DNA from: Parapedobacter pyrenivorans
GTDB taxonomy: Bacteria > Bacteroidota > Bacteroidia > Sphingobacteriales > Sphingobacteriaceae
Length of the DNA stretch: 64,000 nucleotides
NCBI RefSeq assembly: GCF_014636865.1
Contig: NZ_BMER01000002.1
Span: 184,292 to 248,291, forward strand
Direction: 5' to 3'
Numbering within the stretch: the first letter of the stretch is position 1; each line of letters opens with the position of its first letter. The position numbers and the translations under genes are program-made. Of the stretch, positions 9,184-56,702 are shown one piece after another. Under the pieces are notes generated by a model, which worked only from the letters and a program-made list of their open reading frames with translations, was not told the origin of the DNA and did no database searches.

Positions 9184-9825
9184 TTACACCAACGCTACCT
9201 CCCCGAGGTATACACTCCGCGACACGTTGCGGCCTTTCCGGTCGGCGGTAAAGAGCCATACATGGCCTTCGTCCGTCTGGAAATGATTAGGCAATACAAT
9301 TTCTACCGTTCCATCAGCACGCTGGGGCGGCGTGGGCGCGGTGAGGAACTGGTCGATACCCGGATGGTACAGCACGATGTACATCCGGTCGTCCGGCTGT
9401 TGCGCATAAATGCCGTTCTCCACGGTATTCCACGTCACCGTCAGTACACCCGCTGCTGCACTGGCGGATTCGCCGCCGCCACCGCTGTACCCTTCCGCAA
9501 TACGGACCTGGCTGTAATCCAGCATGTAATCTGGATAGTCGCCGGTGATTGCGCGGCTGAGGTTGCTCTGAAACGCCACGTTCATCGGCGTATGCGTATC
9601 CGTTTTGCGCTGGCCGTACCCAACCCGGATAAACACCTTCAGCGGCAGGAGGAAGCGCATCAACAGCGTGAATTTGGCTTGCTGCATCAGCTGTTCTTCC
9701 GTAGCCGGCTTGGTGCGTTTCTTATACAGCCCTTTGATGTAGTCGATGCTCTTCCAGCTGCTGCCGATCACACTACCTGCTTTTCCTTTGAAGCCTCCGT
9801 TGGCTCCTCTTCTGATTACTCCCAT
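9184..9825 (-). CDS. DUF6266 family protein
   Basis: A 213-residue protein with the N-terminal signature I associate with DUF6266 (GGF.GK.GSVIGS.WK..DYI followed by ATEEQL..QAKF.L...FL.PL). The middle contains a YPDY segment and the C-terminal half is beta-strand rich, ending VSRSVYLGEV. The family is widespread in Bacteroidota and of unknown role; I saw no signal peptide, membrane helix or catalytic motif. It heads the minus-strand cassette, with a possible TAnnTTTG box (TATGTTTG at 9958-9965, minus strand) about 130 bp upstream. A terminator hairpin separates it from its paralogue. Confidence 0.75.
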   Translation of the reverse strand: MGVIRRGANGGFKGKAGSVIGSSWKSIDYIKGLYKKRTKPATEEQLMQQAKFTLLMRFLLPLKVFIRVGYGQRKTDTHTPMNVAFQSNLSRAITGDYPDYMLDYSQVRIAEGYSGGGGESASAAAGVLTVTWNTVENGIYAQQPDDRMYIVLYHPGIDQFLTAPTPPQRADGTVEIVLPNHFQTDEGHVWLFTADRKGRNVSRSVYLGEVALV

Positions 9826-42779: not shown

Positions 42780-43097
42780 TCACTCCCGCCCGCGGTACTC
42801 CCGCCGCAGGCGCTCCACGTCGCGGTCGCGGAAGTACTTCTTGCGCTCTATAAACTTGGCTACCGTGATCTCGCCGCGGCGTTGGCAGCGCAGCAGCGTG
42901 CTTTGGCTGATGCCTATGCGGTCCATCGCCTGCTCGGCGGAGCAATATTCAATTTCGGCTTGCTGTTTCTCGAGGATGTAATTCAGGATTTCCTGTTGGT
43001 CAGCGCGGATTTGTTTCAATTCGGGATACAGTATACCGATAATGCGGCCGCAAACGCAAACCTTTCCGCCTGCGTTCGGAGTTGATCCATGTTTCAT
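42780..43097 (-). CDS. Small helix-turn-helix DNA-binding protein
   Basis: A 105-residue protein with a helical N-terminal part (ELKQIRADQQEILNYILEKQQAE). A MerR/excisionase-type HTH follows (about 54-100): SAEQAMDRIGISQSTLLRCQRRGEI, then VAKFIERKKYFRDRDVERLRR. Proteins of this shape are common in Bacteroidota, often on mobile elements, where they act as excisionase-like or regulatory factors. It converges on the second BNR gene (17 bp between stops) and precedes nothing obvious on its own strand. Its target is unknown. Confidence 0.72.
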   Translation of the reverse strand: MKHGSTPNAGGKVCVCGRIIGILYPELKQIRADQQEILNYILEKQQAEIEYCSAEQAMDRIGISQSTLLRCQRRGEITVAKFIERKKYFRDRDVERLRREYRGRE

Positions 43098-43134: not shown

Positions 43135-43896
43135 TTACCACTTGGTCTCTTTCACCCACGCCCAAAACTGCGGGTAGTTGTCCTTTTCACCAAGCGGCAA
43201 ACATGCTTCAAAATAATTCATTTTTAACTCATCTCCCCGCACCTCCTTGATGTAGTCATAAGCCACCGCAAAAGAGCGATGCACCCGCACGAAATGCTCA
43301 CGCGGCAATTGGCCGAGTGCGCGTTTCAGCGTTTTTCCCACAATCAAGTGATCATTTTCTCCAAGCCAAAGTTTACATTCGTTACCCATCGCCTCCAGGT
43401 AAATAATTTCGGCATAGTCAACCCGTTTTAAGACGCTACCTCCCTCTTGCTTCACCAAAAACATTTCATCTCCACCCGTAAGCACCGCCCGCGACGGGGT
43501 TACCATCAGGCTTCGCTTTATCCCATCCATGCTTTCTACAAACCGGGGGAATGAAAATGGCTTGAGCAGGAAATCGGTTATACGATGTTCATAGCCATCC
43601 AGTGCATAATCGCGGTGCGCGCTACACACCACTACGTGAATTGGCGGCATACCCGGCACTTCGCCACGGATACGTTCGCGAACCAACGCTAAGAAATCCA
43701 ATCCTTTGAGGCCGGGCATTTCCATATCGATAAACAAGACATCCACCCGCGCACGTTTTACATACAAATATGCTTTATTTGGATCGGTGCCGGAATAACC
43801 GATAAGCAACCCCGTGTACATCCGTACATACGATTCCAGTAATTCGACTATAGCGCGGTCATCATCTACAATGACGACATGTAGGTTTGTATTCAT
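43135..43896 (-). CDS. LytTR-family response regulator
   Basis: A 253-residue regulator. The receiver domain (about 5-125) has the acidic pocket VDDD, the phospho-acceptor D57 in LFIDMEMPG and K112 in FLLKPF. The LytTR DNA-binding domain (about 148-245) contains YLEAMGNECKLWL, TLKRALGQLP and FVRVHRSFAVAYDYI. It lies 16 bp downstream of the membrane histidine kinase gene on the same strand, forming a LytS/LytTR-type two-component system. Likely targets are neighbouring promoters, such as that of the peptide/acyltransferase genes. Confidence 0.92.
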   Translation of the reverse strand: MNTNLHVVIVDDDRAIVELLESYVRMYTGLLIGYSGTDPNKAYLYVKRARVDVLFIDMEMPGLKGLDFLALVRERIRGEVPGMPPIHVVVCSAHRDYALDGYEHRITDFLLKPFSFPRFVESMDGIKRSLMVTPSRAVLTGGDEMFLVKQEGGSVLKRVDYAEIIYLEAMGNECKLWLGENDHLIVGKTLKRALGQLPREHFVRVHRSFAVAYDYIKEVRGDELKMNYFEACLPLGEKDNYPQFWAWVKETKW

Positions 43897-43912: not shown

Positions 43913-44971
43913 TTAAATATACACGGTCAGTTCCAACCGGTATTGACCGTCTTGTTCGCTGTGGTCCAGTGTAAACCGGCCGTCCAGCGTCAGTTCCAGC
44001 CGTTGCCTCACCGCATATAAACCATAGCCACCCTTCGTTTGCTGGTGCGTTGGTTTGGCTGCTACCCTGTTACAGGTTTCAAATCGATAACCACTAGAGG
44101 AGACGTGCAACCGCATGGTAGCTGGCTCCATTTCGTCATCCGTAACACCGTGTTTCAAGATATTCTCATAGCCCGAAATGAACGTGAACGGCGGTACCTT
44201 AAGCCCCTTCATATTCTCTTCTGCATGGAGTACTACTTGTGGCCTGCCCGGTTCTCCCACGCCATCCAGTGCCATCATTTCGCGCAGGCGTTGCATTTCC
44301 CTTTCTACCCTTACCAGCCGAGGCTTTTGCACCGCATACTCATCCAAGGCGTAATTGACCAAGCCATCTACACGCCGCACCATCTCCACTGCATGGTTCG
44401 GCACCCCCTGCAATATCCGGTAGCAGCGTTGCAACGCGTTGCCCAGGAAATGGAGCGCTATACGTCCTCCTTTTGGTTGGGATGTAGCCGCCATTAAGGC
44501 GCTTTGTAGCCTAGCTGCTTCTTTTAACATATTCTTATTGGTGAGCGCCAACCTTAGCACTTTCTCAAACAGGAAAATGCCGACTCCGTAACTGGTGTAA
44601 CGCAGGTAAAACGGGAGCACATTGCGCACAAAGCGCGAGTGGGAATATACTGCTCCGTCTACATGGATCGCTACACCTGCACGGTTTTCTAACCATTCGA
44701 TATAGCCATAGCCTGCAATCAGCCCCACGACATAAAACAACACCAGCCAAACAGCTGCCTTATGCCAGTTTCCAGCTCGGGAAATCCACCAGCATATCCA
44801 ACGGGTAAAATAAACGACAATCATACACAACGGCATAATCACCAGTATCTTAGCCACACCCGTGTCGTTGTATTTTGTCGTATTATGGAGCACCATGGCT
44901 ACCGAGTAGGCCAGCCATACAACCGCATGCACTGCAACTGTATTACGTATGTTTTTTCCGACATTTTTCAT
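43913..44971 (-). CDS. LytS-type membrane sensor histidine kinase
   Basis: A 352-residue protein with four hydrophobic segments (about 12-28, 41-62, 71-94 and 122-142) and a cytoplasmic kinase region. The His-box reads LHFLGNALQRC with H174; most relatives have PHFLFNSLN, so the Pro and Phe are replaced. The ATP-binding N-box is ISGYENILKHG (usually VENAIKHG). The G-box GGYGLYAVRQRL (314-325) is well kept. It is probably active but divergent. It is translated just before the LytTR regulator. The signal is unknown, with short extracytoplasmic loops. Confidence 0.83.
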   Translation of the reverse strand: MKNVGKNIRNTVAVHAVVWLAYSVAMVLHNTTKYNDTGVAKILVIMPLCMIVVYFTRWICWWISRAGNWHKAAVWLVLFYVVGLIAGYGYIEWLENRAGVAIHVDGAVYSHSRFVRNVLPFYLRYTSYGVGIFLFEKVLRLALTNKNMLKEAARLQSALMAATSQPKGGRIALHFLGNALQRCYRILQGVPNHAVEMVRRVDGLVNYALDEYAVQKPRLVRVEREMQRLREMMALDGVGEPGRPQVVLHAEENMKGLKVPPFTFISGYENILKHGVTDDEMEPATMRLHVSSSGYRFETCNRVAAKPTHQQTKGGYGLYAVRQRLELTLDGRFTLDHSEQDGQYRLELTVYI

Positions 44972-45114: not shown

Positions 45115-46143
45115 TTAAATACAGAAGAAAATGTCTGCATGACGCTTGAGTTCATCATGCAAACGCCTTGGTATACGATACGTGGCGAACGTGGGCGTGT
45201 GCAAGACGAAGTAATGTTCACGTATCTGAAAGGGCATAAATTCGTTGATGGCTTCTGGCTGCAACCCGGTCGGCAATTTGGTCTGGGAGGGAGGATCCAG
45301 TAGCAAATCGTGATGTACATATAGCCACCCTTCCCATTGCGGGGCACGTGCCAACAACAGTGCTTCCAATACTCCATAGGAGGTGGCCATACACCGTTTT
45401 ACGTATGCCTCGCGCACCTCGCCTTTCGCTGCCTCCACCTTTGCTCCTTCCAGCCACCGCACGCCGTTGCCCGCACGGTAACACGCCAGCGGATACACCG
45501 GGACACCGGTGAGGTGCGCTATAAACGCCACTCCAACTTTGGCTGCCATAGGTCTGCCCATGAAATCAAGCACCAATCGGGGTGCTGTACCACGCGGCAG
45601 CGGTACGCCTGTATTTCCATCAAGGTAAGCGACCAGTACCATACCTTGGTTAAACACGGTCCGCATGCGAAAGAGGCTTCGCGGGTCGGATGCGTCAATG
45701 CAAACAAACGATTTTTCATCCGGCGCAACGCCCGTAATTTGACGGTACAGTTGGCGGTACCGAAGTTCCTGCCGTTGCAGCACATCGGCTGAAAGCAATA
45801 ACGCAAACGGGATCCGGTGCTGCATCAGCCATCCGCACACCAACGGATAAGGCCCTGTGTGGAATGTAGCCACTATCGCAGGAAAAGGCACGCCACCGCG
45901 CCAACTTAACGGCGCTGGCATTTCACCAAGACGACGGGCAGCGAGCAGGCTGTCGGCGTTTTCTGCGCGAAGAAGCTGTGTTTCTTCAAAACTAGCCGCA
46001 TGGAATGCGACAGGAACATTGGGCATCAGGTAGCGCATATTGGCACTGTAAAATGCAAATGAGCGCCACGCCAATGAGTCGGCAGCCCATTCCGGTATTC
46101 GCTGCAGCGGCTCAGCCTTTGTGATAGGTCTGTTATTCATCAT
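45115..46143 (-). CDS. HtrB/LpxL-like acyltransferase homologue
   Basis: A 342-residue protein with a fold-level resemblance to lysophospholipid/lipid A acyltransferases: VPFPAIVATFHTGPYPLVCGWL (H95), VAYLDGNTGVPLPRG, and AKVGVAFIAHLTGVPVYPL. The usual HX4(D/E) catalytic motif reads HTGPYP, without the acidic residue, and there is no N-terminal membrane anchor. It may therefore use different chemistry or a different acceptor. Upstream on the same strand, separated by a 97-bp gap with a strong stem-loop, is a 43-residue cysteine-containing peptide gene. Downstream is the LytS/LytTR pair. A link to peptide modification is speculative. Confidence 0.6.
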   Translation of the reverse strand: MMNNRPITKAEPLQRIPEWAADSLAWRSFAFYSANMRYLMPNVPVAFHAASFEETQLLRAENADSLLAARRLGEMPAPLSWRGGVPFPAIVATFHTGPYPLVCGWLMQHRIPFALLLSADVLQRQELRYRQLYRQITGVAPDEKSFVCIDASDPRSLFRMRTVFNQGMVLVAYLDGNTGVPLPRGTAPRLVLDFMGRPMAAKVGVAFIAHLTGVPVYPLACYRAGNGVRWLEGAKVEAAKGEVREAYVKRCMATSYGVLEALLLARAPQWEGWLYVHHDLLLDPPSQTKLPTGLQPEAINEFMPFQIREHYFVLHTPTFATYRIPRRLHDELKRHADIFFCI

Positions 46144-46184
46144 GTCAGATCAGTTGTTTCTTCAGGGCGTTGTGGTAGTCCTTT

Positions 46185-46234
46185 AGGCAACCGTTGGGGC
46201 CGCAGCACGAGGCCGCGGCCCAACAACGTTGCCT
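46185..46234 (-). terminator. Strong GC-rich stem-loop between peptide and acyltransferase genes
   Basis: On the minus strand AGGCAAC.TTGTTGGGCCGC pairs with GCGGCCCCAACGGTTGCCT around a short loop. No T-run follows, so it may be an attenuator or a stabilising 3' end for the short peptide mRNA and not a full terminator. Confidence 0.6.
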
Positions 46235-46240
46235 CCTGGA

Positions 46241-46372
46241 TTAGAGCCAGTCGATTTCGCACTTATCCTCTTTGTCGGGGAGCTCTGTATATTTACATAG
46301 CTCCCCGATATCCAGCGGTTGCTGGAGGCTAGCACACAGTGCTTCGAGCAATTCGTTTACGGCAGTTTCCAT
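46241..46372 (-). CDS. Small three-cysteine peptide, possible modified-peptide precursor
   Basis: A 43-residue ORF too short for most gene callers. It starts METAVNELLEALCASLQQ, continues LDIGELCKYTELPDKEDK and ends CEIDWL. The ATG is preceded after 4 nt by a perfect AAGGAG, unusual in this genome and a good sign of translation. The N-terminal half is a likely amphipathic helix; cysteines lie at 13, 26 and 38, and the C-terminal half is acidic. No signal peptide is present. It is followed by a strong stem-loop and then the acyltransferase-like gene. The leader-plus-core look and neighbouring enzyme make it a candidate ribosomal natural-product or signalling peptide; I recognise no family. Confidence 0.6.
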   Translation of the reverse strand: METAVNELLEALCASLQQPLDIGELCKYTELPDKEDKCEIDWL

Positions 46373-46704
46373 AACGCTCCTTAAATTAAAAAGTAAAACC
46401 ATCTGCCCGTTTTCCGGCTACGGGCTTCGTCCGACTTCTTATTTGGCCATCGAAGATTTGGTGATCACGTTGGCGAAAAAATGGCTTTTACAACCGAAAA
46501 GCAACAAAACGGTTCGATAGTAGCTCTGGGCATCCGAAACAGCAGAAAGGCACCAAAACCAGTGCTTCACACGCTGTGATGCGCTGTTCACACTTTTGAA
46601 TACCCTATTGGAACGATAATTTGGCATCTTTTGGACGTAATAGCGATCTTTACACCGCATTAAACCACTGGCCAATCCCACTGAAGCGGAAGCCGCATCC
46701 TATT
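46373..46704. other. Divergent promoter region, peptide gene and Crp-like gene
   Basis: A 332-bp region between divergent starts. A hairpin (GCCCGT 46405-46410 with ACGGGC 46420-46425) lies in the probable 5' leader of the peptide mRNA. No clear TAnnTTTG box was found. ORFs in this gap look random. Confidence 0.4.
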
Positions 46705-47316
46705 ATGAAACCGATCAACATGCCCGAACACTACACCGCCATCCACGACACGTTGCTGCCGTTTTTCGACATACCAGAAGAACGCCGAGCGCAGGTAGCC
46801 AACGAGCTATTCCCCCGAGCACGGATTTATCATACCACCAGATACCAATTGCTTGAAGATCCTGGAGTAGCCGAAGACGGCCAGTTTATGTTGGTATTGC
46901 AGGGCTTGGCAGACAGTTACTACCGATGCGGGTTTACCGGCAAGCTTTGGGGCCGCCATGTGTACTACCGGCGCGATCCCATCTTCGCGCCGGAAAGTTA
47001 CTGCCGAGGCGAAGCCCGTACGGACTACATCCGGGCGTTGGAGCCCTCTACCGTGCTGAGTATATCTTACACGAGCCTCCGCGCATTAGCAGAGCGGCAC
47101 AGCGAAGTAAAAGCCAAGCTACAACTGCTCAGGGTCCGCAACACCCAGCACCTGCTGGATTACAACCTGCGCAATACCTTGCCAGCCGATGCCCGCATCC
47201 GGGCATTTTTGGAAAAGCACCCCACCCTGCCCCACCGCACCACGGCCAGCGTGTGCGCGATGCACAACCACATGAGCCGGTATTGGTATTCGAAAACAAT
47301 TAAAGAAATGACGTAA
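46705..47316 (+). CDS. Crp/Fnr-like cyclic-nucleotide-binding-domain regulator
   Basis: The product is 203 residues from the ATG at 46705 (MKPINMPEHYTAIHDTLLPFF); an earlier in-frame start gives an unlikely N-terminus. The middle has the jelly-roll pattern of cNMP-binding domains (AQVANELFPRARIYHTTRYQLL, QFMLVLQGLADSYYR). A dimerisation helix follows (LAERHSEVKAKLQLLRVRNTQHLLDY), then a short C-terminal HTH-like part (ARIRAFLEKHPTLPHRTTASVCAMHNHMSRYWYSKTIKE). Ligand residues of true CRP are not evident. Divergent from the peptide gene, it is a candidate regulator of it. Confidence 0.7.
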   Translation: MKPINMPEHYTAIHDTLLPFFDIPEERRAQVANELFPRARIYHTTRYQLLEDPGVAEDGQFMLVLQGLADSYYRCGFTGKLWGRHVYYRRDPIFAPESYCRGEARTDYIRALEPSTVLSISYTSLRALAERHSEVKAKLQLLRVRNTQHLLDYNLRNTLPADARIRAFLEKHPTLPHRTTASVCAMHNHMSRYWYSKTIKEMT

Positions 47317-48478: not shown

Positions 48479-48642
48479 GAGGTAAGATGCTTTTGGTTTA
48501 TAAATGATAAGCTAATTTACAAAAAAGAAGTTGGGTTGGCAAATATAATGACGATTAAGTACCTAACGTTGCCAACAAGTTGCCAAAAAAACTGGCAACT
48601 CATTGCTAACGGTTGGCTGGTTTTGCTGCCTACCTTCGGGTT

Positions 48643-49152
48643 ATGGCAACAACGAAATCCGATAGTTTAGTAGCAAAAGGCTTTCTATTTCGGTCCCGCT
48701 GGAAACAAAAACCGGATAGCCGCACCTTTGCCATCGAAGCTATTTCTATTTTACTGATGCTTCTTTTTGGCCTCACCGCCATCGATAAAGCCCGGCAGTT
48801 TGAACGCTTTTACGCCGAGCTGGGCAAGTCGCCGTTTTTGATGGCCTACCAGGGCTGGGTGGCATGGGGCACGCCCATTGTGGAGGGAATCGTGGTTTTC
48901 TTGTTGATTTTCGGCGGTACCCTACAATTATGGGGGCTCTATGCATCGGTTTTCTTGATGAGCCTCTTTACCGGCTACATCTACCTGTTGCTCAACTACA
49001 GCTATTATACGCCATGCCTTTGCTCGGCAGCGCTTGAAAGCCTCACTTGGGAACAGCATCTGGTATTTAATCTCCTATTCCTGGCATTGGCGATGGCCGC
49101 TACGGCCTCGAAAGAACGACAACGACAAACCCACAAAAACAATAAGCCATGA
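48643..49152 (+). CDS. MauE/DoxX-family redox-associated membrane protein
   Basis: A 169-residue protein from the ATG at 48643 (MATTKSDSLVAKG); an upstream TTG at 48613 is less likely. Four hydrophobic helices are visible. The family's paired-cysteine site lies in SYYTPCLCSAALESLTWEQHLVFNLLFL, which fits the Bacteroidota MauE-like pattern PC.C followed by L.W..H..FN. MauE works with MauD in forming disulfides or maturing methylamine dehydrogenase. Here it is followed by a DUF6520-like Cys-containing secreted peptide and, across a convergent border, by TlpA, suggesting a periplasmic redox unit. Confidence 0.83.
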   Translation: MATTKSDSLVAKGFLFRSRWKQKPDSRTFAIEAISILLMLLFGLTAIDKARQFERFYAELGKSPFLMAYQGWVAWGTPIVEGIVVFLLIFGGTLQLWGLYASVFLMSLFTGYIYLLLNYSYYTPCLCSAALESLTWEQHLVFNLLFLALAMAATASKERQRQTHKNNKP

Positions 49153-49280
49153 AAACGAATCAATCACCCATTTGGAACCACCCGCCTTAGCTGGTCGGAT
49201 GTAAACGTCAGCGAGCAGGATTGCTCTTTCGCTAAAAGCGAAAACACATTATTCAATCATTCATTTTAAACATTTACGTT

Positions 49281-49604
49281 ATGACAACGGTAAATAAAAT
49301 AAAAACAATAAGCAAGATAGGAACATTGGTACTTGCCGCAGGCGTGTATATGTTCTTCGGTTCCAATCAATCGGGCGTTGAAGTGAAGAAAGACCTTCGC
49401 GACCATGTCGCCCCGGCAGAAACCCTTTTCAGGACAGCCGACTATCCCCAGGGTCCGGATATTCCGGAAAATCAGCGGGAAAACACGAAAGCTGAATTGG
49501 AATCTACGGTTTGTCCCCCGGGCGCAACACTTTGTGCTGTAGCAATCGATCCGGAAGACCCTTCAAATGTGATTCTTTGGGAAGGCAATTCCAGCAAATT
49601 CTAA
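49281..49604 (+). CDS. DUF6520-like small exported cysteine protein
   Basis: A 107-residue protein with an N-terminal hydrophobic helix (about 12-27, IGTLVLAAGVYMFFGS). A proline- and acid-rich middle follows, then a C-terminal CPPGATLCAVAIDPEDPSNV with a C-x6-C pair. This is the shape of the DUF6520 peptides that follow MauE-like genes in Bacteroidota; their function is unknown. The 128 bp before it hold a 13-codon ORF that overlaps the mauE stop (ATG at 49149), perhaps a leader or remnant. The cysteine pair may be a substrate of the MauE/TlpA redox proteins nearby. Confidence 0.72.
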   Translation: MTTVNKIKTISKIGTLVLAAGVYMFFGSNQSGVEVKKDLRDHVAPAETLFRTADYPQGPDIPENQRENTKAELESTVCPPGATLCAVAIDPEDPSNVILWEGNSSKF

Positions 49605-49684
49605 TCAGCAACACGAACACACAGCAACTCCGGGCGTTGGCAACCCGGAGTTCCTGTGTTTCGTTCATCCACCTATCCAATACC

Positions 49685-50707
49685 ATGGCGACTTTCCTGA
49701 AGATTGCTTTTGCAGTGCTAGTGGGCATTCTCCTTAATGTCTTCATTTTCATTAAGGCCAACCTGCCTAACTTTGAAGACAATGGTTTTGTCCGATCATT
49801 TTTGCCACAATCTGTCAGCATCACAGAGCCTTTTGACGTGCCTTCCAAATCCGTGGCCATTGCAGGTCAGTTTGGCGGCAAGTTATACCTTACCACGGAT
49901 GATCCCGCAACGCTTGTAGCAGTCGACATGCAAACCCGCCAAGCAAAAGTAGTCAACATCCAACGATTGGGAGATTGGCTGGCCACCGAAAAAGTTCCGG
50001 CCGGGCATACCGCGCTGATCGATTCCCCTTACTACTATGTTTTTGCCTTTAATGCTCCGGGCATCTATGTATACAACTTGGCAAGGGCGCTACCGGAAGC
50101 AACTTATACCGCAGATGCGGTATTTACTACTGGCATATCGCTGTCTGCTACCCGCTTCGTGCTGCGCCAGTATTCCCCCACTGAAAAAGCATTCCGGTTT
50201 TCCCGTATCAGCCACCACGGTGAGACTCGTTGGGAGCAAGGCGTTTCTTTGCCCTCCTCCGATATGGGGCTGAGCAGCGACGGCCGCCTGATGCACGACG
50301 ATCAAACCGGGCTGCTCGTTTACGAACATTATTACAACAACCGGATCCTTGTAGCCGACACTGCATTGAACGAGGTGCATTCGTTTAGTTTACTGGATAC
50401 CGTTGCGCCCAAGCTTCGGCTTGACCCAACCGCACCACGTATAATGACCAATTCCGCAGCCTGCTTACATCGTGGGCTACTGTATCTCTGTTCGAATCTC
50501 CGCGCCGATAACGAACCCTACAAGGAGTATATCAAGCATATCCCCGTCGATATATTTGATGTACAAACAGGCGGGTACCGCGGTAGTTTCTATCTTCCTG
50601 CATTGGATGGCAAGCTGATCAAAAGCATGGCTATCGTAAAGGACCGACTGATCGCCCTCTACTTCAACGACCAAATCGCGTCGTTCACGATACCAGCACT
50701 CCAATAG
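49685..50707 (+). CDS. Membrane-anchored beta-propeller-like protein
   Basis: The product is 340 residues from the ATG at 49685; the frame opens further upstream, but MATFLKIAFAVLVGILLNVFIFI is an obvious signal anchor. The rest is beta-rich with blade-like repeats: GGKLYLTTDDPATLVAVDMQTRQAKVV, SPYYYVFAFNAPGIYVYNLARA, NRILVADTALNEVHSFSLLD and YIKHIPVDIFDVQTGGYRGSFYLP. The C-terminal KDRLIALYFNDQIASFTIPAL closes the propeller. Similar propellers often follow DUF6520/MauE genes in Bacteroidota. It ends 4 bp from the convergent TlpA gene. No catalytic motif is visible. Confidence 0.72.
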   Translation: MATFLKIAFAVLVGILLNVFIFIKANLPNFEDNGFVRSFLPQSVSITEPFDVPSKSVAIAGQFGGKLYLTTDDPATLVAVDMQTRQAKVVNIQRLGDWLATEKVPAGHTALIDSPYYYVFAFNAPGIYVYNLARALPEATYTADAVFTTGISLSATRFVLRQYSPTEKAFRFSRISHHGETRWEQGVSLPSSDMGLSSDGRLMHDDQTGLLVYEHYYNNRILVADTALNEVHSFSLLDTVAPKLRLDPTAPRIMTNSAACLHRGLLYLCSNLRADNEPYKEYIKHIPVDIFDVQTGGYRGSFYLPALDGKLIKSMAIVKDRLIALYFNDQIASFTIPALQ

Positions 50708-50710
50708 CAA

Positions 50711-52120
50711 TCAGTCATGGATAAGCAGCATATCCACCAACCTGATCTCCGGTTCGAGGTATAAACCGTACTTAGCCAATTCCGTACGCAGTACATCCAT
50801 ATCCAATTCATTGTTTATCAAATAACCACTCTTTGGGTCTCTTTTCGGCGAATCCGTAAAATCCAGTTGCATACTGACATTGAAATCTATGTTAGTGCCG
50901 TCCTCAATCGGTGGTGCGCTTATAAACATGGCCAGCACCTTCAGCAATTCGCCGATCGGTTTCCCGTTTATCTGGATATGGTAGCCGTCGAATGGCAGCC
51001 CTTGGCTTAGCGGTTCAAGCTCATTTACGTTCGCATCCAATAGCATCCGTGCGTTCTCCCGCACCCTCAACACATAGCACAGCCGTTCCCTTTTTACAAT
51101 CTCCCCTTTTATGGGCAGCGCCTTATTCAGGTCGGTGAGTATGCGCTCCCGTACTTGATCATCGGGTACACCCGGGCCAAACTCCGCATGGTAGGTATAC
51201 GCATTTTCTTTCCAATAGGCGGCATGGCTTGGATAATCCAGGTAAGGAAACTTTATAGGGCCGTAACTGTAATTGTTTTCATCGGCATATAAGCGATAGG
51301 TCAATGTATCCGCAATATCGACGATGATGCGTTGGTGGTTCGCATTGCCGAGCAAGGTATTCGTTACGTTGAAGAGATTAAATACCCTTACAAATAAGTG
51401 AAGCGGCGTACATTCCATATGCAGGCTACGAATGCTTCCATCATCATGTCTTTTGATCCGGCTCAACGCACTCCCACCCCTTTTGAGGTATGAGGACCAT
51501 AGCAGACTGGAGTCGACGGTCTCCTCGGCTCCATTTGCTAATTGTTCGTCTGTTTGCTGAAAAGAGGCAATGCCGTCTTCCTTCAGCTCCCACTCGATTT
51601 TATCGCCACTAAGCATCGCCGCAATACGCTCCTCGGTGATTGCTGCACCGTGGGTTATTCCTTCAACCCTGCCCGCTGGGTTGACGATGACCACATGCGG
51701 GATGTACGCGTGGGGAAAAGCCTTTTGCAACACCGTATCCCCAATGGCGAAGGGGATACGGATGTTTTGGTGCTTCGTGATTTCAGACCGCCCGAGCAGT
51801 GCCCGCACGTTTTGCTCGATATCTTTCGTTACGGCAATGATCTGCAATTGGTCCGCATACTTATCTTGCAGGGATTGCAATTTCGGCAATGCGTTGATGC
51901 AAGGTTGGCAGTAAGTTTCCCAAAAATCAAGCATCACGTACTTACCACGCAAGTCGTGTAGCGACGCCTGCCTATCCGGAAAATTCATCAGGTAAGTACC
52001 CAGCGGCAAATCCGGCACGGTGTCGCCCAGGGTATATGTCCGATCAACCTGAGCGTGCTGGCCCATCACGCCCGATAGGGAGACGAACGTTAGCACAGTC
52101 ACTATTGCAATTTTAGCCAT
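50711..52120 (-). CDS. TlpA-family periplasmic thiol-disulfide oxidoreductase with long C-terminal extension
   Basis: The product is 469 residues from the ATG at 52120, which gives a clean signal peptide (MAKIAIVTVLTFVSLSGVMG); an ATG at 52153, 2 nt after the SusD stop, is possible. The thioredoxin domain (about 28-175) has LRGKYVMLDFWETYCQPC with C71 and C74 and a cis-proline in AYIPHVVIVNP. The tryptophan before the first cysteine is replaced by tyrosine. The remaining about 290 residues are an unassigned extension. TlpA proteins reduce disulfides in exported proteins. It is the third gene of a SusC-SusD-TlpA unit. Confidence 0.85.
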   Translation of the reverse strand: MAKIAIVTVLTFVSLSGVMGQHAQVDRTYTLGDTVPDLPLGTYLMNFPDRQASLHDLRGKYVMLDFWETYCQPCINALPKLQSLQDKYADQLQIIAVTKDIEQNVRALLGRSEITKHQNIRIPFAIGDTVLQKAFPHAYIPHVVIVNPAGRVEGITHGAAITEERIAAMLSGDKIEWELKEDGIASFQQTDEQLANGAEETVDSSLLWSSYLKRGGSALSRIKRHDDGSIRSLHMECTPLHLFVRVFNLFNVTNTLLGNANHQRIIVDIADTLTYRLYADENNYSYGPIKFPYLDYPSHAAYWKENAYTYHAEFGPGVPDDQVRERILTDLNKALPIKGEIVKRERLCYVLRVRENARMLLDANVNELEPLSQGLPFDGYHIQINGKPIGELLKVLAMFISAPPIEDGTNIDFNVSMQLDFTDSPKRDPKSGYLINNELDMDVLRTELAKYGLYLEPEIRLVDMLLIHD

Positions 52121-52155
52121 GTTGCTTTTTATTAACTGATTCTTTAAACACATTA

Positions 52156-53508
52156 TCAATACCCGTCATTCTGCGGTTCCAAATTTGGATTTCGCTGCCG
52201 CTCCGCCAAAGGCAACGGCCACAACAAATCCGCGGGTTTCCAGCCGGGCTTCAACGGAGACAAGACTTCTGCCGCTGTTCCCGACCGTTTCAAGTCCAAC
52301 CAACGAAGCCCCCACTCCGCAAATAGCTCGATGCGCCTTTCGCGAGCGATGGCCGCCAACAACGCTTCACCGCGCCCATCAAATTCACCCAAGCCTGCCC
52401 GATGCCGCACGGCATTCACATCGGCAAGCGCTCCCGCTTCATCATCCAGCATCGCACGAGCCTCAGCGCGGATTAGGTATTGCTCGGCCACGCGAAATAC
52501 CACCAATGCTTCCGTGGCCGGGCTGTTACCGGAGGCAACCTTATATTTGTAAGGATAAGGGTAGGAAACGCCATCCACTTCATTGGTTCCGAGCCACACC
52601 ACCGTGCGCTGATCTCCCGGCTCATCATCGTCCAGCAATTGGGGTGCGACGTAGTACGTGGGAATCAGTTCCGGCTGACCGGGGATATACGTCGGTGCCT
52701 GAGCGGGCAAGTTGAATGGAATCAATTGCCAGATCGTACCCCGGCTTCCCATGGAAAAGGCCGCTTCGGGATCCTCCAACACATACGCCGGGTCGTTAAT
52801 CACATTTGTCGCAGCATCGGCCGCCTGCTGCCAATCACCAGCAAGCCAATAAACACGCGCCAGCAGCGCCTGTACCACACGCCTATTGATGCGCGCCCGG
52901 TCTGCAGACGGATAGGCATCGGAAAGCAACGCTTCCGCCTCCCTCAGGTCGGCAAGGATAGCGGCTTGAACGCTCGCGCTAGGCGTACGCCCGATCCGTT
53001 GGTTTACGCGATGGTCGGCACCATCAACCAGTGGTACATCCCCCCAAAGATTAGTGAGGTAGAAATAACAGAAGGCACGAATAGCCAATACCTCGCCCCG
53101 CAATTGATCGTGGAGGTCAGCAGCTATGCTGGTGGCATCAGCCAATCCCTCCAGCGCTGCATTACATCGATAAATGCTACGGTAGAAGGCCGTCCATAGG
53201 TTCTGTATCATTCCGTTCGACTCGTCGAGGCTGTTTTCGAAGAACTGCCGATAACCGTTATCACCGCCGGCATACACCAATTGGTCTGAAGAAAGCTCCG
53301 TAGCGATACCCAAGTTGCCCAACTGCCCACTGGCCTCGATGACCCCGTAGTATATCCCCGATATCACCGCCGTTGCACTCTGGTCGGAAGTGTAGACATT
53401 ACCGCGTACCAATTGGTCTTTCGGTGCGGGTATTTCAAGGAAGCTACAGGCACTGGGCAATAACATGAGCGCCAATGCCAACATATAGAAATGTTTTATT
53501 GATTTCAT
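52156..53508 (-). CDS. susD: SusD/RagB-family outer-membrane lipoprotein (locus 3)
   Basis: A 450-residue lipoprotein with lipobox LLPSAC (Cys21) and the SusD segments YTSDQSATAVISGIYYGV, LWTAFYRSIYRCNAAL, RGEVLAIRAFCYFYLTNLWGDVPLVD and a C-terminal ARERRIELFAEWGLRWLDLKRSG. It lies 14 bp after its SusC partner. In this arrangement (SusC, SusD, TlpA, with MauE and DUF6520 close by) the pair may import peptides or metal- or redox-related ligands instead of a glycan, since no carbohydrate enzyme is nearby. Confidence 0.92.
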   Translation of the reverse strand: MKSIKHFYMLALALMLLPSACSFLEIPAPKDQLVRGNVYTSDQSATAVISGIYYGVIEASGQLGNLGIATELSSDQLVYAGGDNGYRQFFENSLDESNGMIQNLWTAFYRSIYRCNAALEGLADATSIAADLHDQLRGEVLAIRAFCYFYLTNLWGDVPLVDGADHRVNQRIGRTPSASVQAAILADLREAEALLSDAYPSADRARINRRVVQALLARVYWLAGDWQQAADAATNVINDPAYVLEDPEAAFSMGSRGTIWQLIPFNLPAQAPTYIPGQPELIPTYYVAPQLLDDDEPGDQRTVVWLGTNEVDGVSYPYPYKYKVASGNSPATEALVVFRVAEQYLIRAEARAMLDDEAGALADVNAVRHRAGLGEFDGRGEALLAAIARERRIELFAEWGLRWLDLKRSGTAAEVLSPLKPGWKPADLLWPLPLAERQRNPNLEPQNDGY

Positions 53509-53522
53509 ATCTCGTAAGTTGA

Positions 53523-56500
53523 TTATAAGGTAATTTGGATTCCCATCGTAACCATACGCAGGGGCGGCAATATGTTTGCGTTTCCGGTCTCGGGGTCATT
53601 GCCCACATAACGGGTAAGCGTGAGCAGGTTTTGTCCCTGCGCATATATCCGGCATCGGTTCAAATGCCAGTTGCCCACCGCAAGGCCGGTCAGCTGATAA
53701 GCCAGCGACACGTTTTTGAGCCGGATGAATGACGCATCGGTATACGCGTCTGTAGAAGCCCGGTATCGCAAGAAAGCCATCGCCGCATCTCCACCCGTTG
53801 CATAGCGCTGTGTACTCGATATGTCACCGGGCTGCTGCCACCTATCCACCACCAACGCGGGTACATTGTAACGGTGTCCGGGCGCGTTGATCAGTGTTGC
53901 CAGCCCATTCACCTTTTTCTGCTTCACGAACTGAACGAATATGCTGGCCTCAAATCCCCGATAGGTAAGCGTATGGTTCCAACCGCCGTAATATCTCGGC
54001 GTGATATCGTAAAACACCGTCTGACCAGTCTCCATGTCAACCGTATGCAAACCCGTCGCCGGATCGACACCCGTATACAACCACAGGCGCACAATGTCAA
54101 GCGGTTTGCCGACCTCATATCGCGATGCGTTATTGGATTCTGCCAAACCGGGGTATTCCAACAACTTATTCCGCGATAGGGTCAAATTGAACTCCGAAGA
54201 CCACGAAAAATCCGGACGCTGGATGGGTACCGTGTGCAACTCAAACTCCCACCCCGTATTCTGCACCAACGCAGGCAGGTTGCGTGTGATGTTTGAAAAA
54301 CCAACCTGCGTGGGCAGGGCATCCTGTAGCAGTTGGTTGCCACTGCGGTTGCGAAACCAAGCTACCGAAGCAAGGAGGCGGTCGTTTACGAAACCCAGAT
54401 CGAGCGCCGCCTCCAGTTTGCGATTCGTCTCCCACGCATAGTCCGCATTGAACAGCCGATTGGGGTACAGCCCTGCGATTCCCTGGTACGGATTGGTGGT
54501 GCCATAGGTATCGAGGTACTGGTAGTTGCCGATGTTGTCGTTGCCGGTAATCCCGTAGCTCCCCCGCACCTTGCCGAAGCTTAAAAGCCCATCGGTATTT
54601 TCAAACCAACTTTCCTTAGTAAATATCCACGCTGCACCAACCGCGCCAAAGTTTGCATATTGCCGGCCCGTACCGAAGCGGGAGGAACCATCGCGCCGTG
54701 CAGTGAAATTGAGCAAGTACTTGTCAGCGCGGTTGTAGTTGATCCGGCCAAAAAACGACTGGTACCGGTAAAGATCGTGGCTGGCGCTATTCACCAGCGA
54801 TGCCGCACCGTTGATCGTACCCAACAGCGCTTCATTGGAATAATCACTGGCCTGCACAGCCGATAGGTCATTAATGGATTCCCTTAAGGTTGCACCGACA
54901 AGGGCTTGGATGCGATCGGCATCCGATAACGCTATAGCATAGGACAATTGCGGTTCAATAATCCAGGACTTGGCGTTCGCATCGCTGAAAGCTGATGCTC
55001 CCCAGTTCCGGTTTGCGGCAGAAGGGCCGTAGTAGGCGTTGGGTGTAATCCGTTCGGCCGATATCCTCGAAACCGTATAGCCTGTGTTGGCTTTCAATTG
55101 CAGACCAAATCCAATGTCATATTGAACATTTAGATTGGAAATCAAGTTTTGTGTCAGACTGGTGTTTTTCTGATCGAGATAACGCAAGGGATTGACGAAT
55201 GAAGAACCGTTATCGCTCCACATCAATTTACCGGATGCGTCGTAAGCTGGTTGTACAGGAGGGGTATATATTTGCCCTGTCAAATCACTGGTGATTAGGT
55301 TGTTCTTCCCGCCGCTGTACCCCACGCTCACATTGGCTTGCAGCCGATCATCGGCAGACCGATGGTTGATGTTAAGCTGGGCAGCGCCACGTCGGTCTGC
55401 CAGGTCATCACCGGGGAATACGGTAGTTTCGCGCCGGTACGAACCTGCAAGACGGAATTGCGTACCCTCACTCCCACCGGATAGCGCCACCTGCACATCG
55501 CCCAGCTTGGCCGTGTTGCCGATCATCAGCTTCTTCCAATCCACGTAGCGCGTGGTATCCCACAACAGCAGATCCGGTGCATTCGCCGGTGTCGGCTCCA
55601 CGCCGTCATTGCGGAAAGCTTCGCGTCGCATTTCGAGGTACTGCTGGGTGTTCATCAGCTCCATCGTGCGCGTTACCCTACCCATGCCGGTGTATAGATT
55701 CACGTCCACGCTCGTCCTTCCGGCTTTACCACGCTTCGTGGTAATGAGGATTACGCCGTTGGCCCCGCGGCTGCCATAAATAGCCGTGGCATCAGCATCC
55801 TTGAGCACCTCGATACTTTCGATATCTGCCGGATTGATGCTGTTGAAGGGGCTAATATCGCCCGCTGCCCCACGCGTCTGGGATTGGGTGAGGCTGCTGC
55901 TCAACCACGGCACACCATCTATGATGTACATCGGCTCGTTGCCCTGCTGGATGGAGTTGCGGCCACGGATACGGACGTTTACGGTGCTGCCGGGCAAGCC
56001 GTTAGTCTGGTTGATTTCCAGCCCGGGTATACGGCCCGCCAAGGCGAGCAACGGATTGCCGACAGGCTGTTTTGCAATCGTCTGGGAAGTGACACGGCCC
56101 ACACTCCCCGTATTGAGCCGTCTGCTGGTGGTACCATAAGCGATGACCACGGTTTCATCCAATGTATTATCCGCAGTTTCCATCGACACGTCGACGGACG
56201 CTCGACCGTTTATCGCCTCTTTGCGTTCCTTATAGCCCACAAAGGAAAAGACCAAGATGTCACCGGCCTGCGCGGAGATGCGGTACTCCCCTAGCCTATC
56301 CGTGATCGCATGGATGCGTGTGCGTCCGTTAGTAACGGTAGCGCCCACTATCGCCCGGCCATCAGCAGCGGAGGTCACCGTGCCGGATACGGTAAGGGAC
56401 TTCTCGACAGCAATCGGGATTTCGCTTCGCTCCGGCTGCGCGCGGGCATACAAACACATAGTCGTTAGAAAAAATGCCACCATCAACCCCAAAGCGAGGC

Positions 56501-56702
56501 CCAGCCCGCTACGGGCTCGGGCCATCGCATGGGTACAAACACATGATTCTTCATTTCTTTTTGCAGGCAGCAAGCTGTGTGGCTGTTGCCCTTCCATTCC
56601 GGAATTCCCTCCAGTTTGGCTTGGCAATTTGGTCGTACCAAGATTTCGTTGGTTGGCTATCAAAAGGGTATAGCTATCCCCTAAGCGTAAATTTTGCTTC
56701 AT
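53523..56702 (-). CDS. susC: SusC/RagA-family TonB-linked outer-membrane transporter (locus 3)
   Basis: A frame of 1059 codons from the ATG at 56702. The hydrophobic signal segment begins only near residue 66 (LGLALGLMVAFFLTTMCLYARAQ), so the true start may be the ATG at 56597 or 56525. A carboxypeptidase-regulatory-like domain (about 100-180) and LDETVVIAYGTTSRRLNTGSV follow. The plug has ALAGRIPGLEI, VRIRGRNSIQQGNEPMYIIDGVPW and ATAIYGSRGANGVILITTKRG, and the barrel ends LRMVTMGIQITL. No STN domain and no anti-sigma/sigma pair are seen, unlike many TonB-dependent systems with TlpA. It leads the SusC-SusD-TlpA unit. Confidence 0.93.
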   Translation of the reverse strand: MKQNLRLGDSYTLLIANQRNLGTTKLPSQTGGNSGMEGQQPHSLLPAKRNEESCVCTHAMARARSGLGLALGLMVAFFLTTMCLYARAQPERSEIPIAVEKSLTVSGTVTSAADGRAIVGATVTNGRTRIHAITDRLGEYRISAQAGDILVFSFVGYKERKEAINGRASVDVSMETADNTLDETVVIAYGTTSRRLNTGSVGRVTSQTIAKQPVGNPLLALAGRIPGLEINQTNGLPGSTVNVRIRGRNSIQQGNEPMYIIDGVPWLSSSLTQSQTRGAAGDISPFNSINPADIESIEVLKDADATAIYGSRGANGVILITTKRGKAGRTSVDVNLYTGMGRVTRTMELMNTQQYLEMRREAFRNDGVEPTPANAPDLLLWDTTRYVDWKKLMIGNTAKLGDVQVALSGGSEGTQFRLAGSYRRETTVFPGDDLADRRGAAQLNINHRSADDRLQANVSVGYSGGKNNLITSDLTGQIYTPPVQPAYDASGKLMWSDNGSSFVNPLRYLDQKNTSLTQNLISNLNVQYDIGFGLQLKANTGYTVSRISAERITPNAYYGPSAANRNWGASAFSDANAKSWIIEPQLSYAIALSDADRIQALVGATLRESINDLSAVQASDYSNEALLGTINGAASLVNSASHDLYRYQSFFGRINYNRADKYLLNFTARRDGSSRFGTGRQYANFGAVGAAWIFTKESWFENTDGLLSFGKVRGSYGITGNDNIGNYQYLDTYGTTNPYQGIAGLYPNRLFNADYAWETNRKLEAALDLGFVNDRLLASVAWFRNRSGNQLLQDALPTQVGFSNITRNLPALVQNTGWEFELHTVPIQRPDFSWSSEFNLTLSRNKLLEYPGLAESNNASRYEVGKPLDIVRLWLYTGVDPATGLHTVDMETGQTVFYDITPRYYGGWNHTLTYRGFEASIFVQFVKQKKVNGLATLINAPGHRYNVPALVVDRWQQPGDISSTQRYATGGDAAMAFLRYRASTDAYTDASFIRLKNVSLAYQLTGLAVGNWHLNRCRIYAQGQNLLTLTRYVGNDPETGNANILPPLRMVTMGIQITL

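Follow-up and report, generated by a model that had tools for sequence, protein, structure and literature searches.

A recurrent cassette of a cysteine peptide gene, an acyltransferase homologue and a two-component system in Sphingobacteriaceae: a candidate peptide pheromone circuit

Introduction

In the genome of Parapedobacter pyrenivorans (Bacteroidota, Sphingobacteriaceae), a gene for a 43-residue peptide with three cysteines lies next to a gene for a homologue of lipid acyltransferases, and genes for a histidine kinase and a response regulator follow. What might these genes do together? We studied a 64,000-nucleotide stretch around them (assembly GCF_014636865.1, contig NZ_BMER01000002.1, positions 184,292 to 248,291), referred to below as the window. 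A first-pass annotation, made from the letters and their open reading frames, had proposed that the peptide may be a precursor modified, perhaps acylated, by the enzyme and that the two-component system may sense or control it. Dedicated kinase receptors for peptide pheromones have been described mainly in Gram-positive bacteria, and we know of no peptide-modifying member of the LpxL/PatA enzyme superfamily. A circuit of the proposed kind would, if confirmed, be an undescribed form of bacterial chemical communication.

Results

Organization of the locus

The peptide gene occupies positions 46244–46372 of the minus strand, with its stop codon at 46241–46243. Its product, METAVNELLEALCASLQQPLDIGELCKYTELPDKEDKCEIDWL, is read from the ATG at 46372 and ends in a C-terminal core of the conserved type, KCEIDWL. 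The sequence AAGGAG stands 4 nt before this ATG, just as the first-pass annotation had claimed. The same frame also contains an ATG at 46402, which would give 53 residues; the one with the Shine-Dalgarno sequence is the likelier start. A strong Shine-Dalgarno is no feature of the family, because AAGGAG or AGGAGG precedes an in-frame ATG in only 3 of 110 candidate peptides, that of the window included. The peptide has no Pfam or NCBIfam name, in agreement with the annotation, and its sole Pfam listing (HTH_5, E 0.08) is far below the cut-off. PHROGs gave no match for the window enzyme or the peptide.

The 97-nt spacer between the peptide and enzyme genes holds the strong stem-loop that had been noted after the peptide frame: it folds at −40.9 kcal/mol (z −4.2), and the stem-loop itself (46186–46233, minus strand) is a probable partial terminator or attenuator. 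The window gave no Rfam match at gathering cut-offs. The enzyme gene, a homologue of LpxL/PatA-superfamily acyltransferases and the proposed peptide-modifying enzyme, follows at 45115–46143 on the minus strand; the motif HTGPYP is found at the expected place in it, and H95, D175 and W270 are conserved residues. On the same strand lie a membrane histidine kinase of the LytS/PF06580 type (43913–44971; PF06580 E 0.002, below the cut-off), in which a simple hydropathy scan finds three hydrophobic segments, and a LytTR-type response regulator (43135–43896; PF00072 6e-17 and PF04397 3e-10, both above the cut-off). The annotated LytS/LytTR pair is thus supported by Pfam for the regulator and weakly for the kinase. 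After the regulator comes a small MerR/HTH_17-like DNA-binding protein (42780–43097, minus strand; match below the cut-off), a recurrent neighbour. On the other side, a divergent Crp-like regulator is encoded at 46621–47316 of the plus strand (cNMP_binding E 0.0059, below the cut-off).

Recurrence of the cassette

When whole genomes of the family were searched with the enzyme, 57 of the 301 sampled had it, and the genome of the window carries five copies. A profile built from 39 relatives matched 78 of 400 genomes sampled across the order, all 78 from the same family; phylum-wide, it matched 7 of 395 sampled genomes, five of them outside the family. Scanning genome contigs with the window enzyme turned up a single relative, in Prevotella. 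The window enzyme had no match among plasmids, nor did the L095 enzyme among viral contigs in one scan.

Gene order was compared in 109 regions, namely the window and 108 regions fetched around the matches of the family search and checked by eye against the list of those matches, with one enzyme counted per region. In 99 of them the kinase gene comes immediately after the enzyme gene, and the full order of enzyme, kinase and regulator is found in 95. Four of the 14 exceptions (L047, L059, L079, L128) have the kinase with no regulator counted directly after it. Among these, L128 has a regulator and a kinase frame in two pieces, and L059 was counted as lacking the regulator. The seed set of the regulator profile included at least one transposase (that of L059), which was kept in. 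In two more regions (L083, L122) the kinase and regulator lie about 2 kb further on. The remaining eight (L068, L095, L096, L101, L104, L109, L120, L133) have no kinase within the stretch. A peptide of the usual type is present in six of these eight; L133 has none, and the candidate in L101 looks spurious.

The peptide ORF, the stem-loop and the genes for the acyltransferase homologue, the kinase and the LytTR regulator recur together as one cassette. The arrangement is not due to chance, since it is repeated at some 100 loci, many of which are relatives of each other, and since the peptide pattern described below exceeds its frequency in shuffles, on the other strand and before other ORFs. 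No description of the cassette was found among the matches listed from the open-access literature, subscription papers being mostly outside this coverage.

Separately, L068, L095, L096, L104, L109 and L120 stand as peptide–enzyme units whose stretches hold no kinase. L096 has three enzyme genes, two of which read as short frames, and these three frames share one contig of one genome with one frame of L095.

A hypervariable peptide with a conserved C-terminal cysteine

At most loci, a short ORF starting with ATG precedes the enzyme and is hypervariable except for its C-terminal end. This end is usually made up of a Lys or Arg followed by a Cys, with five or six residues, most of them hydrophobic or acidic, between the Cys and the stop codon. 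A strict pattern, defined as an ORF ending in [KR]C-x4-7-stop upstream of the enzyme, was found at 75 of 108 loci. Control searches gave 3 of 108 for the other strand, 0–7 of 108 for 20 dinucleotide shuffles and 10 of 324 for stretches before other ORFs. For a loose pattern the counts were 97 of 108 loci, 33 of 108 on the other strand, 18–31 of 108 in shuffles and 85 of 324 before other ORFs. A Cys is required by either pattern, and the test was therefore repeated with each of the twenty residues: Cys was found at 50 of 76 non-redundant loci as against 1.7 in shuffles, and every other residue at 8 or fewer. For these counts one enzyme per region was used and enzymes shorter than 255 residues were dropped; in the twenty-residue test, upstream regions sharing many 12-mers were also removed.

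A scored scan, in which the Cys was again demanded, gave a candidate peptide for 110 of 125 enzyme genes, with six distant loci (L032, L182–L186) excluded from the count. Three candidates (L101, L122, L197) were judged spurious by eye. Among the 15 genes left unscored, six have a peptide when inspected by eye (L055, L100, L106, L108, L121, L128), and five of these six lack an ATG that would give 20 residues. In the 107 retained peptides, Lys or Arg precedes the Cys in 91 and the tail after it is five or six residues long, also in 91. The peptide is thus kept next to homologous enzymes, which is what the first-pass annotation had suggested looking for.

The same annotation had noted three cysteines. 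All three are present in the window peptide; only the third falls within the conserved core, and a single Cys is found in 89 of 110 candidate precursors, so that the conserved feature is one Cys. The five cassettes in the window genome end in KCEIDWL, KCGFTPL, KCDPWIF, PCDEFIL and SCETPIIRIFT.

Over 18 close pairs, with each locus used at most once, pN/pS was 0.28 (pS 0.295, pN 0.083), and close peptide pairs thus show purifying selection. Only intact ORFs of equal length were paired, some from the same subfamily, and such a choice is blind to the frameshifts and stops that the first-pass annotation had named as evidence against its idea.

An acyltransferase homologue with an invariant His and Asp

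The assignment of the enzyme as an acyltransferase is weak. The match of the window enzyme to Lip_A_acyltrans (PF03279) has E 0.025 and 14.2 bits against a gathering cut-off of 22.3, and 6 of 39 relatives match this model at E 1e-3. A profile of the enzyme aligned with solved PatA structures at E of about 1e-4 over an 87-column stretch.

With enzymes below 255 residues dropped, H95 is found in 107 of 108 relatives (the remaining one has a gap) and D175 and W270 in all 108; the three are also invariant in 51 sequences that include the distant L032, L184 and L185. The acid of the HX4(D/E) motif is lost in 105 of 107 enzymes. The commonest residue in its place is Arg (53 of 107), and the presence of Glu in the other two enzymes rules out that the acid is absent everywhere. 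The first-pass annotation had taken its loss as that of a catalytic residue. For PatA, the HX4D aspartate is reported to be structural, the D131A variant retains 37% of activity, and the catalytic relay is His126–Glu200 (PMC4792965). D175 is probably the relay acid, standing where Glu200 of PatA would be expected; the profile alignments to PatA begin just after D175, and the equivalence is inferred. With its invariant His and Asp kept, the enzyme does not look crippled and is probably active. AlphaFold models made without an alignment had a mean pLDDT of 33 for the window enzyme and 42 for the kinase and were set aside as too poor.

Stem-loop, direct repeats and palindrome

Spacers shorter than 30 nt (17 of 110) were set aside before folding. 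The folding z-score is below −2 in 74 of the remaining 93 loci, with a median of −3.1, and the stem-loop after the precursor gene can thus be regarded as a regular part of the cassette.

For repeats and palindromes, upstream regions sharing many 12-mers were removed. Direct repeats upstream of the peptide gene, counted when at least 8 of 9 bases match, occur at a spacing of 21 in 31 of 85 non-redundant regions and at a spacing of 20 in 15 of 85. Other spacings from 12 to 60 (20–23 excluded) gave a mean of 2.7 with a standard deviation of 1.6. LytTR regulators such as AgrA bind direct repeats of about this 21-bp spacing. In the window, the repeat GTGTGAA-N14-GTGTGAA (spacing 21; 46566–46593, minus strand) is the proposed response-regulator site and the sole exact match in the 5.9-Mb genome. 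Repeat pairs at a spacing of 20 or 21 were seen at the other four cassettes too, with different units, under a lenient criterion that had no control of its own. This pattern favours locus-specific autoregulation.

A second element, the palindrome GTGATCAC, lies at 46461–46468 in the divergent promoter region of the window. Of 83 non-redundant regions preceding peptide genes, 15 contain it, compared with 0.35 expected. We considered it as the site of the divergent Crp-like regulator. The palindrome is present at 4 of 32 loci with a Crp-like regulator (the window having been assigned to these by hand), 13 of 39 with an AraC-type regulator and 7 of 40 with neither, and these counts do not support the idea.

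Distant homologues in RiPP-like surroundings

Four distant homologues of the enzyme have RiPP-type neighbours. In L184 and L185 the enzyme homologue lies beside a radical SAM/SPASM protein and an M50-type protease; the radical SAM proteins match many RiPP-maturase models, and among the listed equivalogs none reaches its curated cut-off. In L186 the neighbours are a SagD-type YcaO protein, a nitroreductase and a weak M50 match, and in L032, from Prevotella, an arginase-family protein. We consider the RiPP-type neighbours of these four homologues the best sign that the family may modify peptides. Small Cys-containing ORFs, potential precursors, were found near the enzyme in L185 and L186.

No kinase lies in the stretches around L182 and L183, the two f10 homologues. 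Within 700 bases upstream of the L183 enzyme there are two identical tandem frames that contain Cys, MKKQFTIKPAQVV...GACCSSFDLSKMVATR, which are possible precursors in another family; no clear precursor was seen near the enzyme of L182. As for the arginase-family protein of L032 (1744–2955), it has an N-terminal extension and is possibly a peptide arginase.

Kinase conservation and co-variation of the peptide tail

A His stands in the phospho-acceptor place in 99 of 99 aligned kinase homologues. Co-variation between the peptide tail and its possible partners was analysed in 84 loci, all with a peptide score of at least 7 and with a single enzyme and a single kinase of at least 300 residues in the region. 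Tail distance correlates with enzyme distance beyond what kinase and sensor distance explain (partial r 0.16; none of 500 permutations as high). Given kinase distance, the tail correlates weakly with the sensor (partial r 0.09; 1 of 500 permutations). Examined as a sign of receptor–ligand co-evolution, this signal disappeared once enzyme distance was controlled as well (r 0.03; 84 of 500). As the tail co-varies with the enzyme and the sensor signal vanishes, the analysis favours an enzyme–substrate link more than it shows a receptor–ligand one.

Together with the retention of the peptide beside homologous enzymes, this lends partial support to the earlier proposal of an enzyme-modified precursor. 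Two corrections apply: the enzyme should not be taken as crippled, and one Cys is conserved rather than three.

Discussion

A candidate modified-peptide pheromone circuit

We regard it as reasonably probable that the cassette is a self-contained modified-peptide pheromone circuit, one that would work like ComQXPA or Agr, belong to neither and use an unrelated precursor and enzyme. The small gene would encode a leader–core precursor, its core being the last six or seven residues from the one conserved Cys, usually K/R-Cys-x5. The LpxL/PatA-like enzyme would modify this core, most likely by transferring a fatty acyl chain onto the Cys, either as S-acylation or, if the peptide is cleaved before the Cys, as N-acylation. 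Our confidence in fatty acylation as the chemistry is lower than in the circuit as a whole. The modified product would leave the cell by a general route and act as the ligand sensed by the adjacent membrane kinase, which would phosphorylate the LytTR regulator. This protein would bind the direct repeats upstream of the peptide gene, leading to autoinduction. Finally, the stem-loop after the peptide gene would reduce transcription of the enzyme and kinase relative to that of the precursor.

The gene order, the Cys peptide, the stem-loop, the repeats and the RiPP-type context of the distant homologues, from which we infer these steps, can all be read in the genomes. The cassette showed neither a recognisable peptidase nor an exporter, and cleavage and secretion are therefore left unexplained. 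The weak co-variation of tail and sensor, the enzyme genes with no scored peptide, the regions in which no kinase follows the enzyme, the lack of a kinase around L182 and L183 and the weak acyltransferase assignment also speak against the circuit. If the proposal is true, both a communication system and a RiPP chemistry are open to direct test; the predicted cores are mostly six to seven residues long, and thus synthetic candidate ligands could be made at once.

Comparison with known systems and alternative readings

A close analogy in logic is offered by ComQXPA of Bacillus, in which ComX is isoprenylated on one Trp by ComQ. In both systems a short, hypervariable precursor keeps one modifiable residue close to its C-terminus, and a dedicated enzyme, a membrane kinase and a response regulator share the cassette. 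Here, however, the residue is Cys, the enzyme is LpxL/PatA-like, the hosts are Bacteroidota, a stem-loop follows the precursor gene, and the window kinase adjoins a LytTR regulator instead of the LuxR-type one of ComQXPA. Position −6 carries Cys at 44 of 76 loci, compared with 4.6 in shuffles, and Trp at 4 of 76, compared with 2.2 (maximum 4). The enzyme relatives matched no isoprenyl transferase model and matched Lip_A_acyltrans/PatA-type models instead.

Agr and Fsr share with the present cassette the Cys-first cores rich in hydrophobic residues and the pairing of a kinase with a LytTR regulator (PF04397 above the cut-off). Their direct-repeat targets are about 21 bp apart, and repeats of spacing 20 or 21, putative regulator sites, are enriched here. 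They differ in that our enzyme belongs to another superfamily and our kinase is of the LytS/PF06580 type.

This likeness raises the possibility of a pheromone cassette whose Cys peptide receives something other than a fatty acyl group, for example an Agr-like thiolactone from the Cys to the C-terminal residue, or another ring. The tails CDFVIL and CDEFIL do resemble the AIP ring sequence, CDFIM, and end hydrophobic at the stop codon; the regulator is LytTR, as in Agr, and the HX4 acid typical of acyltransferases is lost in 105 of 107 enzymes. On the other hand, proteins of the LpxL/PatA fold are known to transfer acyl groups from thioesters and are not known to activate a free carboxylate. In AgrD, further residues follow the ring; in the cassette nothing cleavable follows the core, since in 91 of the 107 peptides retained the stop codon comes five or six residues behind the Cys. 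AgrB (PF04647) had no match at E 1e-3 in the whole window genome, a result with a weak control (one sub-cut-off match in 14 control genomes). We consider such a product unlikely.

Like PatA and LpxL/LpxM (PF03279), the enzyme has a conserved His after a hydrophobic strand, and its profile similarity to PatA extends over 87 columns. It departs from them in the loss of the HX4(D/E) acid (105 of 107) and in having a peptide gene as its recurrent genomic partner. In this last respect the pair of a small ORF and an enzyme homologue resembles RiPP precursors adjacent to their modifying enzymes, a likeness known here at the level of sequence. The enzymes that acylate selidamides are GNAT-like, and to our knowledge neither selidamides and nostolysamides nor DybA-type RiPPs have a dedicated LpxL-like enzyme together with a kinase. 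Nostolysamides are described as ribosomal peptides acylated on Lys. DybA-type RiPPs of Bacteroidota are reported to carry acyl chains on an N-terminal Cys (PMC12636315); DybA is lipidated by the general lipoprotein pathway, which differs from the dedicated enzyme proposed here.

RiPP-like surroundings also fit a modified peptide that serves as an antimicrobial or as a metal or redox ligand, with the kinase pair as a regulator of self-sensing or immunity. Ordinary RiPP-type genes accompany the distant enzyme homologues, six regions combine peptide and enzyme but show no kinase within the stretch, and bacteriocin clusters commonly have two-component autoregulation. Yet the cassette showed no recognisable gene for immunity or export, with annotation covering part of the neighbour clusters, and up to five copies per genome with tiny variable tails and locus-specific repeats would better fit private signalling channels. 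To us this function seems improbable.

It is very unlikely that the ORF is a regulatory leader (an upstream ORF or attenuator) or a small subunit of a lipid-modifying enzyme in an envelope-stress operon: the stem-loop after the ORF, as in attenuators, and the resemblance of the enzyme to lipid acyltransferases would agree with it, but a K/R-Cys core conserved at the C-terminus of an otherwise hypervariable ORF (pN/pS 0.28), the RiPP-type neighbours of the distant homologues and five copies with different tails in one genome argue against it.

Neighbouring genes and possible targets

Under the pheromone circuit, the LytTR regulator might also drive the divergent regulator and the adjoining SusC/SusD–MauE module. 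Among the 109 regions, SusD/SusC-like gene clusters occur in 74, a MauE-like cluster in 40 and Crp-like or AraC-type regulator clusters in 78; for these labels one representative per cluster was scanned, and each was above the cut-off. In the window, all of them lie near the cassette, with a weakly matching Crp-like gene: a MauE-like membrane protein at 48613–49152 (plus strand; PF07291 1.5e-24), SusD at 52156–53508 and a SusC-like receptor at 53523–56702, the latter two together spanning 52156–56702 of the minus strand.

The circuit may control this SusC/SusD surface module, and the cassette may then show what switches on some SusC/SusD surface loci. A broader reading is a class of ribosomal lipopeptide pheromones of Bacteroidota, in which a dedicated LpxL/PatA-type enzyme would acylate the one Cys that opens the C-terminal core of tiny, hypervariable precursors, with several private autoinducing channels per cell (five in this genome) and cognate LytS/LytTR pairs in control of SusC/SusD-type loci. 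We put this forward tentatively, as possible but somewhat short of probable.

Beside SusC/SusD, the stretch at 48613–52159 holds the MauE-like gene, a 107-residue ORF, a 398-residue ORF with no family match and a thioredoxin-like gene of the TlpA type. The 107-residue ORF (49281–49604, plus strand) has a hydrophobic N-terminus and two Cys in its sequence and likewise matches no family. Parts of this module recur beside the cassette. In 31 of 109 regions a DUF6266 cluster follows the cassette on its downstream side (representative in L034, 9859–10584), and a DUF6266 protein is also encoded elsewhere in the window, at 9184–9825 (E 3e-37).
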